From contig JANQGG010000048.1 in assembly GCA_028277445.1 (NCBI GenBank), forward strand, positions 1 through 38,690: DNA of 38,690 nucleotides, written 5' to 3'. Of this stretch, positions 30,255 through 36,923 are shown in pieces. Position 1 is the stretch's first letter, and the number at the start of each line of letters is the position of its first letter. Position numbers and translations under genes: made by a program. Source of the DNA: Chloroherpetonaceae bacterium (GTDB lineage Bacteria > Bacteroidota > Chlorobiia > Chlorobiales > Chloroherpetonaceae). Under the pieces are notes generated by a model that saw only the letters and a program-made list of their open reading frames with translations, did no database searches and was not told the origin of the DNA.

Positions 30255-30704
30255 AGTTTGCGTGCTCAACGCTACAAACTCACCGCTCAACCTGCCTACA
30301 ACTTGCTCCTTGTGCTCTAAAACTGACTTAACGGTTACTCTACCTTTTCCACGGCGCGCCAACATGCGAGTGAAGGTTGCCCAGCCTTCAATGTGCTCCA
30401 TTGAGGCTTTTGCTGTAAAATCGCCAAATATAGGTTTTTCGTATTCCATAGCGCTTCGCTGAATCACCAAGTGTATGTCGTTGATACCTTCATCGCTCAA
30501 ACGCATTTGCAGAAGAGACCATGCCGCAAGAATGGCGAGCGCTGAAGCGCTGCCTCCAAAAACAGTTTCGCGGTGATTGATATTAGGCGCTAGCGGAGCA
30601 CGCAAGACAACGGCGTCTGTACTTACTGAAACAACTGAGACTTCCATCGCCTTAGATAGAGGAATATTGTCGTGAAGGTATTTCTCAAATTCAGCTTGTG
30701 ACAT
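30249..30704 (-). CDS. YiiD C-terminal type thioesterase (hotdog fold)
   Basis: The 151-residue protein matches the thioesterase domain found at the C-terminus of E. coli YiiD/FabY, a hotdog-fold family presumed to hydrolyse acyl-CoA or acyl-ACP. Marks are VVLRAPLAPNINHRETVFGG, where the Asn-His pair and GGS are conserved, followed by SALAILAAWSLL and a C-terminal sheet ending SGEFVAL. It is a complete single-gene cassette: a short 5' end just after attC-like site 2 and site 1 overlapping its stop. A second, truncated copy lies at 31618-31803. Confidence 0.85.
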   Translation of the reverse strand: MSQAEFEKYLHDNIPLSKAMEVSVVSVSTDAVVLRAPLAPNINHRETVFGGSASALAILAAWSLLQMRLSDEGINDIHLVIQRSAMEYEKPIFGDFTAKASMEHIEGWATFTRMLARRGKGRVTVKSVLEHKEQVVGRLSGEFVALSTQTA

Positions 30705-30714
30705 TTTTTCTTCT

Positions 30715-30844
30715 TTTTAACGCAGAGTTCAGCAGCGGCACGCTCGACGGCACAAAACGTCAATAAGCCAATAACTTACAACCCACCACCAAACGAAAAA
30801 ACCAGCTCTGATACCGCACAGTCCGGCGCAGCGCCTTATTAGCC
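30715..30844 (-). other. attC-like site 2, after the PIN partner gene
   Basis: On the minus strand it begins GGCTAAT, overlapping the partner-gene stop, continues AAGGCGCTGCGCCGG, and ends CTGAACTCTGC then GTTAAAA. Both inner words are typical of attC arms. Length 130 bases. Confidence 0.6.
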
Positions 30845-31602: not shown

Positions 31603-31630
31603 GGCTAACGTAAAGCGTCAGCTGTAAAGT
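31603..31630 (-). other. attC-like site 3, 3' remnant
   Basis: On the minus strand CAGCTGACGCTTTAC runs into GTTAGCC. Only the distal arm of an attC is left, joined directly to the truncated thioesterase frame. Confidence 0.4.
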
Positions 31631-31803
31631 ATTGCCAGCGCTGAAGCGCTACCTCCAAATACGGTTTCGCGGTGATTGATATTAGGCACTAGCGGAGCAC
31701 GCAAGACAACGGCGTCTGTGCTTACTGAAACAACCGAGACTTCCATCGCCTTAGATAAAGGAATATTGTTGTGAAGGTATTTCTCAAGTTCAGCCGGTAA
31801 CAT
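31618..31803 (-). pseudogene. Truncated duplicate of the YiiD-type thioesterase
   Basis: The first 58 codons match the thioesterase at 30249-30704 almost residue for residue (NIPLSKAMEVSVVSVSTDAV, then APLVPNINHRETVFGG, SASALAIL) and then stop after YS. The DNA match covers about 31632-31820 against 30530-30721 with few substitutions, including the noncoding TTTTTTCTTCTTTTTAAC, and ends at the predicted attC recombination point. The missing two thirds include most of the fold, so the product is unlikely to work. The reading end runs into an attC remnant. Confidence 0.85.
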
Positions 31804-31813
31804 TTTTTCTTCT

Positions 31814-31914
31814 TTTTAACGGGCTGCGGATAAGCTGCTTGAACGCGCTCCAAGATTACCCTTTTCCGAAAAACAGTCGCGTGTTCACGCGTCAGTTTAA
31901 TGCGCGTCTTAGAT
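31814..31914 (-). other. attC-like site 4, after hicB
   Basis: On the minus strand ATCTAAG begins 11 bases after the hicB stop; the site continues ACGCGCATTAAACTGACGCG and ends AGCTTATCCGCAGCCC, GTTAAAA. Arms with GTGAACACGC and GCGCGTTCAAG pair in part. Length 101 bases. Confidence 0.6.
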
Positions 31915-32541: not shown

Positions 32542-32556
32542 ATTATTATAGAGGCT

Positions 32557-32662
32557 TTCTAACAAGTACATCACCCACGCGGAACTCGTCGATGGTTTGA
32601 CTTTGCGAGAGACTGGCTCTAAAAAGACGCCGATTCCGCGTCGTGCACATGTTTTGTTAGGA
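32557..32662 (-). other. attC-like site 5, after the DUF4062-GalT gene
   Basis: The clearest of the sites. On the minus strand TCCTAAC begins 16 bases after the gene's stop and GTTAGAA ends the site. The arms CACGACGCGGAA (left) and TTCCGCGTGGGTG (right) pair with small bulges, as in attC L boxes. Length 106 bases. Confidence 0.7.
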
Positions 32663-32678
32663 TGTAAAGTACCGAAGA

Positions 32679-34574
32679 CTAAAGTAAAAAGTTATTTACA
32701 ATTGTATTTGATTCTAGAGAGAGTTCTTGTTTCACAATAGGCAGTTTTTCCATTATAGTCTCAAAAGTATCCTCTGGAAATTTGTCAACAACATAGAGCA
32801 AATTTAATTCAGATACTGCAAAATCGACCTCTCGAGTAATGAATGAGAATATTGATCGAAAACCATTTGACTGCATATTAAATGGCTCAGCGATCATAAC
32901 TTCATTGAAGCTATGTATTCCAATTTTCTTATATATTTTCGTAACCAAATATTCACATTGAGATAGTGATTCAATTTCCTTCACATTGAGTGACAAGAAA
33001 TTGTTGGAATTCCTCCTTTTGACAATTACTTGTAATTCATGAATAGCAATTTGACCAAAAGGAATATAGAGCATAACATTGGAATCTTCCCAAATAACAT
33101 AATGGCGTGATCGCAGAGCCTCCATATAATCTTCCAAGTAATCTATACCGCTTTTATCGTATGAAGCACATATTTCTGAAAGGTGATCACCGATATTAAA
33201 TGCGCCCTTTGCAAATCCCCAAATTTGCTTATGGACATGCTCAATACTTGCGCCTGCTGATGTTCTTGTTTTTTTGCCAAGAACAAGATGTTTAATTGAT
33301 GAATTAAAACCAAAAAGTATTCCCGCTGAGCCATTTAGTTGATTATTGTCATATTCACTTTTTAAGTGTTTAAATATTTGTAAATTCATTTTTAATAAAT
33401 GTTCTTCTTGAACATCCTCCCAAGAATGTACTGGATCATTAGGGAATGTTAAATAGTGAAAAAATGCACCATAAGGAAAATCATTGGCCATAACAGTTGT
33501 ATCGTTCGTAGTTGCAGAATGGATTTTACGATAATATTTAAAATTGGGATTACAGAATTTGCAGTTTTTCTGTTTTAGTTGTTCTGAGGCCGATGGATTT
33601 TTAGCAGCTATTTTCTTTACGAGATCGCTGGGATCATTAGCATGGATATGGTCCACAACAGCAGGTTCGGTTACGAGTTCTGCTAATACCATGCGAATCC
33701 ATTCATCTTCTTGTTCCAAAATGAATGGGTACATTTTCTTAATTTTTTCTAAATTTATTGATTTTAGATGATCTATTGCTTCAGGCTCTCCCTCTGTTCT
33801 CAGATTTCTAGTTAATCCTACTTGTATTTCAAAGGGTCGGACAGGATCCCTTGTTATAAATACTTTATTTTCTAAGGGATTATTTTGAGAATCACGCCCT
33901 GGTGTGGTACCTATTACTAATCGATAAAAGTGAGGTGCGTTTGAGGGGTGAAATGATGAATATTTATTTGTGTTTGGGACATTTAGTTGATCAACATCAT
34001 TAAATTCTAATTCTGCAATTTCTGTTCTTTGGGAGGGTGCAATGGGTGGTAGGGATTCATTGAGTTCGTCTATTGATATAGCAAGATGTTGGCCTACTAA
34101 ATCTGAGAATTCTTCAAGTTCGCTAAAAGTAGCAATTACACCTGCACCTTCTAATTCTTTTTTAAAAGTCAATACTTTATTCATCTGCTCTATTTCCTCA
34201 AACTTTTGAGGCATAAATGGCCTTTGACAGAAATAAAAAAGAATTTTTTTATTGGCTTTATCAGCTTTCCATTCAGAAAAGGCATTCCTAAATTCTTCTT
34301 CAGTACCAGAATCAGCGATGCCTGTTGGTTTGCCGAACCATTTCCACATTATACCAATGAATATATCGAATTGACCAATTTGTTGATTAATCACTTCTTG
34401 GGGCCGGCCCATTCCAGGTACGAATATCTCCCAACCCTTAAATTCAATATAAATATTTCTTCCGCTGTAAACAGAATTCAAATTATCAATTATTTTTTTA
34501 ACTCTCTCTCGCTCCATATCGACGTCATGTGGCGATGCTACGAATATTCTAATTTTTCTCGTATTATTTTCCAT
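32679..34574 (-). CDS. DUF4062-GalT/HIT-like fusion, candidate defence protein
   Basis: The 631-residue protein joins two modules. Residues 1-175 are DUF4062 (IRIFVASPHDVDMERERVKK, WEIFVPGMGRPQEVINQQI, DIFIGIMWKWFGKPTG, GTEEEFRNAF), a TIR/Rossmann-like domain usually attached to STAND NTPases. Residues about 205-610 resemble galactose-1-phosphate uridylyltransferase: CKFC (338-341) like its zinc site, HYLTFPND (373 on), and the active-site motif GASIEHVHKQIW (441-452), matching GCSxPHxHGQ of GalT with His446 and His448. A second HIT-like lobe follows (VMLYIPFGQIAIHELQVIVKR). A strong GGGAGGTG Shine-Dalgarno (34582-34589), seven bases from the ATG, is unlike most genes in the window. It forms a one-gene cassette. 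Nucleotide transfer or hydrolysis is inferred; a defence role is speculation from the DUF4062 and island context. Confidence 0.8.
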   Translation of the reverse strand: MENNTRKIRIFVASPHDVDMERERVKKIIDNLNSVYSGRNIYIEFKGWEIFVPGMGRPQEVINQQIGQFDIFIGIMWKWFGKPTGIADSGTEEEFRNAFSEWKADKANKKILFYFCQRPFMPQKFEEIEQMNKVLTFKKELEGAGVIATFSELEEFSDLVGQHLAISIDELNESLPPIAPSQRTEIAELEFNDVDQLNVPNTNKYSSFHPSNAPHFYRLVIGTTPGRDSQNNPLENKVFITRDPVRPFEIQVGLTRNLRTEGEPEAIDHLKSINLEKIKKMYPFILEQEDEWIRMVLAELVTEPAVVDHIHANDPSDLVKKIAAKNPSASEQLKQKNCKFCNPNFKYYRKIHSATTNDTTVMANDFPYGAFFHYLTFPNDPVHSWEDVQEEHLLKMNLQIFKHLKSEYDNNQLNGSAGILFGFNSSIKHLVLGKKTRTSAGASIEHVHKQIWGFAKGAFNIGDHLSEICASYDKSGIDYLEDYMEALRSRHYVIWEDSNVMLYIPFGQIAIHELQVIVKRRNSNNFLSLNVKEIESLSQCEYLVTKIYKKIGIHSFNEVMIAEPFNMQSNGFRSIFSFITREVDFAVSELNLLYVVDKFPEDTFETIMEKLPIVKQELSLESNTIVNNFLL

Positions 34575-34625
34575 TAATATTCACCTCCCTAATAAGGTTA
34601 TTTTAAAGGTTTATTAACGAATTAA

Positions 34626-34672
34626 TCTTAACGCCGCAAATCAGCGGCGCCGCTGTATTTGCCTTGTTGTGC
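34626..34672 (-). other. attC-like site 6, after the methyltransferase gene
   Basis: On the minus strand GCACAAC AAGGCAAATA leads into the perfect palindrome CAGCGGCGCCGCTG, then ATTTGCGGC and GTTAAGA. It begins four bases after the stop. At 47 bases it is short for an attC, but arm sequence and symmetry are typical. Confidence 0.6.
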
Positions 34673-34675
34673 GTT

Positions 34676-35380
34676 TTACAAAATTGGATTTAATCTTGCT
34701 AAAAATCCGCCCTCTTCAGTATTAATGAGTTTCTCTACAGACCAACCACATTCCAAAACATGGGGAGCCAATGTATCAAAGTCTACGTGCAGCCAATGCA
34801 TCCAGGGACCGACGTTTCCTTCAAATGATAAACGGAACTCCTGTTCCCCTGGATATCCTTTGCGGTCTGGGAAAATGGCTGATTCAGGCTCTTTGACAGA
34901 ACTGGGTAGCAACTGGCCGTCTGAACGCAGAAGCCTTTCGCATTTACGGAGTAAGCCCTTTATTCCCTTTAGGGTTTCGCAAATACCAATGTTATGCCCC
35001 AGCATAAAAACTGTATCAAATCGTTCGCCTTCAAAATGTAAAAAATTCTGCTGTCTGGCATCCTTGATTCCGCGTTCTTTCATGATATGTAACGCTTGAG
35101 GACAAATGTCGATGGCTGTAACTTCATAGCCTCGCTTTTCAGGTTCAAGGGCATGAACCCCCAGTTCCTGCCCCAAAAACCAAAATTTGACCCCGGCAAT
35201 TATCAAAAGCATTGTCAGTCTGTAAAAATTCTCCATGAGAGCGGAAAAATACGGAAACCGGCAACGATTTTTTTTGCCGGTCTTGAACTCATGTATAAGC
35301 ACAGCAGATTCATTGCCTCGCCAGTAAGAAAGTAACGCCTGTCCAAAGGGTTCAAGAGGTAACTTGTAAGATTCTCTCAT
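34676..35380 (-). CDS. Class I SAM-dependent methyltransferase with two compensating frameshifts
   Basis: The open frame resembles small-molecule SAM methyltransferases of the type beginning FGQALLSYWRGN and continuing RGYEVTAIDICPQALHIMKERG. In the open frame the SAM-binding motif reads FWFLGQELGVHA, which is wrong. In the neighbouring frame, bases of about 35268 down to 35160 encode SLPVSVFFRSHGEFLQTDN and ILVFGAGTG, exactly the missing family segment. Adding one A in the 8-base run at 35268-35275 and removing one G in the 5-base run at 35158-35162 restores a normal protein with GAGTGVHA. So it is a damaged gene or two homopolymer sequencing errors. An in-frame ATG at 35473 would add 31 residues unlike the family. 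Confidence 0.7.
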   Translation of the reverse strand: MRESYKLPLEPFGQALLSYWRGNESAVLIHEFKTGKKNRCRFPYFSALMENFYRLTMLLIIAGVKFWFLGQELGVHALEPEKRGYEVTAIDICPQALHIMKERGIKDARQQNFLHFEGERFDTVFMLGHNIGICETLKGIKGLLRKCERLLRSDGQLLPSSVKEPESAIFPDRKGYPGEQEFRLSFEGNVGPWMHWLHVDFDTLAPHVLECGWSVEKLINTEEGGFLARLNPIL

Positions 35381-35638
35381 GTCTTGTATTCGCACAACAT
35401 TGATTATATGGTTTCCGCATAAGACGCCTGCGGGTATTCTTTCAAAATTATATAACGTCAATTTTTTCAACATCTTACCCCCAACTTAACCCTTTATGCA
35501 GGCATCTTATACGCATTAGTATAAGACATCTGATCACAGAGCATCTTCAGGGTAATGTAGGCTTAAAAGCTCTAGATTTTAAAATGGATATAGAGGACTT
35601 TCATGCTTTGTTGAGTTCGGGTTTTAACTCTTAAAAAA
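35381..35638. other. Short gene-free stretch before the methyltransferase
   Basis: The only frame here is the 5' extension of the methyltransferase. GCATCTTATACG (35502 on) and CGCATTAGTATAAGACATC (35511 on) contain a partly inverted TCTTATAC/GTATAAGA pair that could be regulatory or a cassette-start remnant. Otherwise nothing is recognised. Confidence 0.3.
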
Positions 35639-35735
35639 ACCTAACGCCTTATTTTAACGAAACTAATCAAAAAAAATAAAATCGGTTTACCCAGAGACTG
35701 CCTAGCTAAAGACATAGCTGTGAGTGGTTCTCACG
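35616..35735. repeat. Direct repeat, copy A
   Basis: About 120 bases repeated with roughly nine tenths identity at 36687-36805, in the same orientation. Shared words include CCTAACGCCTTATTTTAACG and AACTAATCAAAAAAA, TAAAATCGGTTT and GCTAAAGACA. The pair flanks the yefM-yoeB unit and the antitoxin remnant. Confidence 0.85.
35639..35691 (-). other. attC-like site A within direct repeat A
   Basis: On the minus strand GGTAAAC starts and GTTAGGT ends a 53-base segment. GTTAGGT fits the consensus end fully; arm symmetry (CCGATTTTA against TAAAATAAGG) is modest. Confidence 0.4.
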
Positions 35736-35759
35736 CTTGGGGATCATTCTCACCCCAAA

Positions 35760-35934
35760 TCATTTATTAAGCAACCGAATGGTTTTTACGATTTGTTTTT
35801 CATCAATCAATTTATCATTGGCCTATTTGTAAAGTATGCTTGAAATAAACGTTTGATATGGCAGCCCCCTCTTCCTGAGCTTTTCTTTTGATTGATTCCA
35901 GTGTTTGATTATTCAAGCGAAGGGTAATCCTGTT
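35760..35934 (-). pseudogene. Decayed ribbon-helix-helix (CopG/BrnA-like) antitoxin
   Basis: The minus strand encodes RITLRLNNQTLESIKRKAQEEG, then, one frame over, PYQTFISSILYK, a stop, and ANDKLIDEKQIVKTIRLLNK. Put together these match RHH antitoxins of the kind ITLRL...EEGIPYQTLISSILHKYV. The remnant lacks a start codon and has one frameshift and one stop, so it is dead. No toxin partner remains. It sits between attC-like sites 7 and A as its own cassette. Confidence 0.7.
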
Positions 35935-36686: not shown

Positions 36687-36805
36687 TTCGGGTTTTAACT
36701 TCTAAAAAACCTAACGCCTTATTTTAACGAAACTAATCAAAAAAATAAAATCGGTTTGCCCAGAAACCGCCTTGCTAAAGACAGCACTGTGACTGGTTCT
36801 TATGC
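36687..36805. repeat. Direct repeat, copy B
   Basis: Second copy of the 120-base repeat at 35616-35735, same orientation, about 1.07 kb away. Confidence 0.85.
36709..36760 (-). other. attC-like site B within direct repeat B
   Basis: On the minus strand GGCAAAC starts and GTTAGGT ends a 52-base segment upstream of yefM. It would mark the right-hand limit of the recognisable cassette array. Confidence 0.4.
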
Positions 36806-36923
36806 TAAAGGATAATTGCCTCGAGAAATCAGCGATACTGCGACCATATAAATTGAAAACCCGAATATCAGCTCGGCTGCATGTCTTTGGTTTTGGTTGA
36901 GGGAACGACGTATAAACTACTCT

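Follow-up and report, generated by a model that had tools for sequence, protein, structure and literature searches.

A family of probable anti-phage proteins in which DUF4062 or TIR domains are fused to a GalT-type nucleotidyltransferase module

We have identified a small family of proteins, probably anti-phage and so far undescribed, in which an NADase-type domain, DUF4062 or TIR, is fused to a C-terminal module related to galactose-1-phosphate uridylyltransferase (GalT). The member described here lies in a 38,690-nt stretch of DNA (the window) from a Chloroherpetonaceae bacterium (contig JANQGG010000048.1). Catalytic residues are conserved in both domains, DUF4062 and TIR are exchanged on one module, and the window gene sits in a mobile cassette. 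The protein is hypothesized to be a one-gene, immune-type (abortive-infection) NADase gated by its GalT-type module, a reading whose chances we judge to be evenly balanced.

The gene runs from position 34574, where its start codon lies, to 32679 on the minus strand as a single open reading frame (ORF) of 631 aa; the plus strand over 32679-34574 has stop codons throughout. It is present in a single copy in its own genome. A first-pass annotation had placed an ORF here, leaving its strand unstated, and had read residues 1-175 as DUF4062. Both calls hold. Pfam PF13271 matches residues 9-98 above its cut-off (28.6 bits against 24.7; E 1.7e-6), and the PADLOC model PDC-S60 matches residues 7-181 (34032-34556; E 2.9e-36) over 177 of its 906 positions, i.e. 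the first fifth only. Experiments have shown DUF4062 to be a TIR-like NADase that acts as the effector of Swarozyc, an anti-phage system (PMC13174449, a preprint of May 2026). The Klebsiella Swarozyc protein depletes NAD+ upon binding of the phage portal by its auxiliary domain, and E97 is needed for this (PMC13174449). Alignment and comparison with that residue point to Glu94 (34293-34295), in an SGTEEEF motif, as the predicted catalytic glutamate of the window protein, and E94 is kept in every alignable DUF4062 homologue. NADase activity is probable here and, because DUF4062 is itself a TIR-like NADase, this domain is the likely effector, a point absent from the first-pass annotation.

Other DUF4062 proteins were seen along the way. 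In the phylum search, many Chlorobiales genomes encoded long (about 1,000 aa) DUF4062 proteins, and two of those read out (L018 and L019) have P-loop NTPase-like sequence behind DUF4062, as in STAND proteins. The DUF4062 of a 340-aa ORF (L004; G140:C31) is 49% identical to the window's and is followed, by eye, by a second TIR-like nucleotide-binding domain, making it a possible double NADase.

The first-pass annotation had proposed a search for the same domain order elsewhere, and nine further members, with DUF4062 or TIR at the N-terminus, bring the family to ten. A scan of 85,000 genomes returned seven loci, two of them already known from the phylum search, and a search of Geobacterales gave two more. 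Besides the window gene, whose genome is placed in the order Chlorobiales by its relatedness to those of Chlorobium and Chlorobaculum, four members are DUF4062-GalT proteins: one from an Ignavibacteriales bacterium (L021), one from a Geobacter (L022) and two from related Geobacterales (L038, L039). In the remaining five, a true TIR domain stands in place of DUF4062, which the first-pass annotation had not foreseen; these come from Chlorobaculum (L002 and L024, one locus), Chlorobium (L003 and L025, likewise one locus) and Gammaproteobacteria (L023, L026, L027). The TIR_2 profile matches the two TIR-GalT members that were scanned (E 1e-17 and 5e-14), and a third gives Foldseek matches to TIR structures. 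The TIR versions also match TIR anti-phage families and models, and they keep the glutamate at the catalytic position. TIR and DUF4062 occupy the same position on the GalT module, which is 38-44% identical in the TIR-bearing relatives. An NADase-type domain is fused in ten of ten members (in L022 it is joined across a frame break in the assembly), and no stand-alone GalT module was found among members in the genomes searched. In the genomes to which the family model was applied, an empty gap separates the members, at 528 bits or more, from canonical GalTs, at about 40-48 bits.

Since DUF4062 is a TIR-like NADase (PMC13174449) and its catalytic glutamate is kept as E94, the exchange would replace one NADase type with another. 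Two NADase types on one constant module suggest a controlling role for the latter. The GalT tree splits the DUF4062 and TIR versions cleanly (support 100/100), and a single exchange is therefore enough to explain the two. In the window protein the GalT module is 52% identical to that of Ignavibacteriales versus 39% to that of Chlorobiaceae, of its own order, a pattern that fits horizontal transfer. The family is scattered over four phyla. Searches of plasmids and phages with tblastn returned DUF4062 parts only, or nothing, and a scan of viral contigs found no member.

The first-pass annotation had assigned residues ~205-610 to a GalT-like domain and had staked that reading on a match within residues 330-600. 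A match was found by profile, sequence and Foldseek, placing remote GalT homology at about 335-600 and a GalT/HIT-type two-lobed domain at residues of about 336-605 (32760-33569, minus strand). Residues 205-335 (33570-33962) are instead an extra conserved beta/helical region with an RDPxRPFxIQxGxxRxxR motif, common in alignments to the DUF4062 and TIR versions. Within it, residues of about 285-335 were read by eye as a possible leucine-rich-variant-like helical repeat, for which Pfam gave no match. The window protein matches the NCBIfam galT model (E 8e-4), as do seven of eight family members with the NCBIfam GalT model; it scores 18.6 bits against the curated GalT equivalog cut-off of 448 bits, and a Pfam scan gave no PF01087 match. 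Its top PDB sequence match is the Arabidopsis GalT-like protein 1z84 (E 3.5e-4). An HMM of canonical GalTs, made from the E. coli protein and Ignavibacterial GalTs, picks up the members tested, with listed E values of 3e-7 to 2e-3; conversely, the family HMM picks up canonical GalTs with E down to 6e-14. Two AlphaFold models were generated, both of low confidence (mean pLDDT 51 and 56), and only fold-level conclusions were drawn from them. Their Foldseek matches to GalT have E 1e-7 and 1.7e-6, and every one of the 13 and 19 best PDB hits is a GalT or the GalT-like ADP-glucose phosphorylase; among the top hits, at low rmsd, is 2h39/1z84, the ADP-glucose phosphorylase At5g18200 of Arabidopsis. 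By sequence, profile and fold, the homology is remote yet real and not due to chance.

CKFC (residues 338-341; 33552-33563) would supply the first two zinc ligands, C338 and C341 (E. coli GalT C52 and C55), with order and spacing as in the E. coli enzyme; His383 (33426-33428) would be the third (H115, by hhalign alignment), and HVHKQ (residues 446-450; 33225-33239) would hold the zinc ligand H446 (H164), the nucleophile H448 (H166) and Q450 (Q168). Both motifs given by the first-pass annotation, CKFC from residue 338 and GASIEHVHKQIW over residues 441-452, are confirmed. In the profile alignment, CxxC, NDF, the third zinc-ligand histidine and HxHxQIW stand in register with E. coli C52/C55, N77-D78, H115 and H164/H166/Q168. 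Since the residues for zinc binding and for the covalent NMP-histidine are all invariant across the family alignment, we expect the site to be active, or at least nucleotide-binding, and infer zinc binding and nucleotidyl transfer for the window protein. The second lobe proposed earlier stands as part of a two-lobed fold, but without its canonical histidines: other residues stand at H281, H296 and H298 in all nine aligned members, which makes galactose-1-phosphate an unlikely substrate.

One might suppose that two genes had been wrongly joined, or that there is no true GalT domain, as many loci come from metagenome-assembled genomes and L022 has a frame break. The same order nevertheless recurs in open frames, in independent assemblies, in several phyla and with both NADase types, and the GalT homology is backed in several ways (profile, sequence and fold). 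A chance or assembly artefact is refuted for practical purposes, and we give it a vanishingly small probability.

As the first-pass annotation had it, the window gene has a strong Shine-Dalgarno sequence, a cassette of its own and toxin-rich neighbours. The Shine-Dalgarno region, with AGGGAGGTGA, lies just before the ATG (34582-34597, minus strand). An attC-like site downstream of the gene (CTAACA...TTCCGCG...TTGTTAG; 32556-32663, minus strand) folds back at -21.2 kcal/mol (z -3.5), and another (34630-34683, minus strand; foldback z -2.0), with ends AACAAGGC...GCGGCGTTA, closes the preceding, methyltransferase cassette. By these sequence features the gene is a mobile cassette. Its neighbours are HicAB, YoeB/YefM, a frame-broken PIN gene and the methyltransferase gene. 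No integron integrase scored above the cut-off in the same genome (G000); short, high-scoring C-terminal pieces of integron integrase, in frames of 70-83 aa and apparently decayed, lie on other contigs (C68, 94929-95114; C57, 57554-57763). Two repeats were also observed in the window. A 195-nt repeat (30528-30722 and 31627-31821; 92%) duplicates the 5' part of a YiiD_C thioesterase gene, and a frame-broken PIN gene lies between its copies. Repeats at 35634-35762 and 36704-36831, about 1,070 nt apart on either side of YoeB/YefM, contain GCGTTAGG core-like sites, i.e. cassette boundaries.

Nearness to defence genes, which the first-pass annotation had thought worth scoring, is seen at the window gene with its toxin-antitoxin cassettes; most relatives lie outside defence islands, beside housekeeping genes, namely carB/greA, ahcY, a sugar ABC transporter or a cupin gene together with a glycosyltransferase gene. 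These neighbours are varied, so the homologues are not confined to sugar-metabolism operons, the finding that annotation had said would count against it. The three gammaproteobacterial TIR-GalT genes always adjoin a glycosyltransferase gene and a mannose-6-phosphate-isomerase-like cupin gene on the other strand. The Chlorobaculum and Chlorobium copies are at the same place, facing ahcY, and few Chlorobiales genomes carry TIR-GalT. When the ORFs around the loci were read, no conserved operon partner was found at any member; all are single genes.

Such housekeeping surroundings, and gene positions that are stable inside small clades, would suit an enzyme of nucleotide or nucleotide-sugar metabolism or of stress regulation in which DUF4062/TIR would serve for binding or assembly. 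We consider this improbable. The family is very rare and scattered (2/395, 1/398 and 1/164 genomes in three genome sets), unlike a core pathway, and it keeps the catalytic glutamate in both NADase types while the second-lobe histidine cluster of GalT is lost. No gal operon is found at the members, and PF01087 has no match in six of the ten host genomes, that of the window among them. A role in defence is suggested mainly by the NADase domain and, in the window alone, by an attC cassette set among toxin-antitoxin genes.

In the gated NADase that we propose, the C-terminal module (the extra beta/helical region plus the GalT-type domain) would hold the NADase in check in cis. This module would bind a nucleotide group, supplied by a nucleotide or by a nucleotide-sugar; its histidine could take up that group covalently and then pass it on. 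The state of the GalT site would set NADase activity, and infection would change the ligand of that site. The usual sensor-effector layout favours gating. A gated NADase is further supported by a DUF4062 NADase with E94, the TIR_2 swap, the invariant GalT residues, single genes, the attC cassette and the scattered distribution. Against gating, the complete conservation of catalytic residues exceeds the need of a pure ligand sensor, and only NADase domains are fused, whereas one would expect to see a general sensor joined to nucleases or pores too. The defence-like context at the window gene alone and the low confidence of both structure models also weigh against a gated NADase.

The restriction to NADase domains in all ten members favours coupling to NAD chemistry, as in a two-step enzyme. 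ADP-ribose belongs to the nucleoside diphosphate sugars, the compounds from which GalT-type enzymes form NMP-His. In this scheme, DUF4062/TIR would make ADP-ribose or a cyclic isomer of it. The GalT domain would then act on the product, moving AMP onto its histidine and then to phosphate or another acceptor. NAD+ loss would become irreversible through removal of phage-reusable ADP-ribose, or a signal would be cleared or remade. The rank of ADP-glucose phosphorylase among sequence and fold hits fits such a reaction. Phages can rebuild NAD+ from ADP-ribose and nicotinamide via NARP1 (PMC12774641), which would give the destruction of ADP-ribose a benefit. The scheme leaves infection sensing unexplained, unless residues 205-335 perform it, and we regard it as rather unlikely. 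It is compatible with gating, and the two are not mutually exclusive.

The first-pass annotation did not know this combination as a described system, and in the literature searched we found no paper describing TIR-GalT or DUF4062-GalT, or linking GalT to phage defence. To our knowledge, and in that literature, no GalT-type enzyme has been tied to immunity. Some DUF4062 proteins are stated, in general terms only, to carry further enzymatic domains (PMC13174449); GalT is not named in the main text of that preprint, and its supplement might name it. The effector is of a known kind, an NADase immune effector, and the enzymatic partner is unprecedented. We tentatively suggest, with confidence just short of even, a new NAD-depleting immune class in which a GalT-type nucleotidyl-transfer site works with the NADase, destroying ADP-ribose against NAD+ rebuilding or sensing infection via a covalent nucleotidyl-histidine. 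If active, these proteins would build nucleotidyl transfer into an NADase immune effector and allow a test of whether hosts, by removing ADP-ribose, keep phages from rebuilding NAD+. The DUF4062/TIR swap on one module also lends independent evolutionary support to DUF4062 as a TIR-like NADase (PMC13174449).

Among known systems, Swarozyc shares the N-terminal DUF4062 with its conserved catalytic glutamate, the single gene and the patchy spread. It carries a winged-helix portal-binding auxiliary domain where the window protein has a GalT-type C-terminal module, and membership was rejected for that reason. Membership in PDC-S60 was rejected as well, as the likeness covers the DUF4062 part and the other 700 positions of the model are unmatched by the window protein. 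Thoeris ThsB/ThcB4, retron-TIR and SAVED-TIR resemble the family in that their TIR models match its TIR versions, which keep the glutamate at the catalytic position; the family differs in having no ThsA, SAVED, retron or other partner and in its fusion to GalT. With GalT itself, of the HIT superfamily, it shares the CxxC, His and HxHxQ set, the NDF motif and the two-lobed fold, but identity in the profile alignment is about 17%, scores fall far under curated cut-offs, the second-lobe histidines are missing, and there is an extra N-terminal region, an NADase fusion and no gal operon. An enzyme of a sugar operon was rejected as an explanation on its own, because the neighbours vary and GalT's second-lobe histidines are lost. 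ADP-glucose phosphorylase (1z84/2h39) heads the PDB sequence hits and ranks with the fold hits of lowest rmsd, but it is a plant sugar enzyme that carries no effector domain, and the likeness seen is one of sequence and fold.
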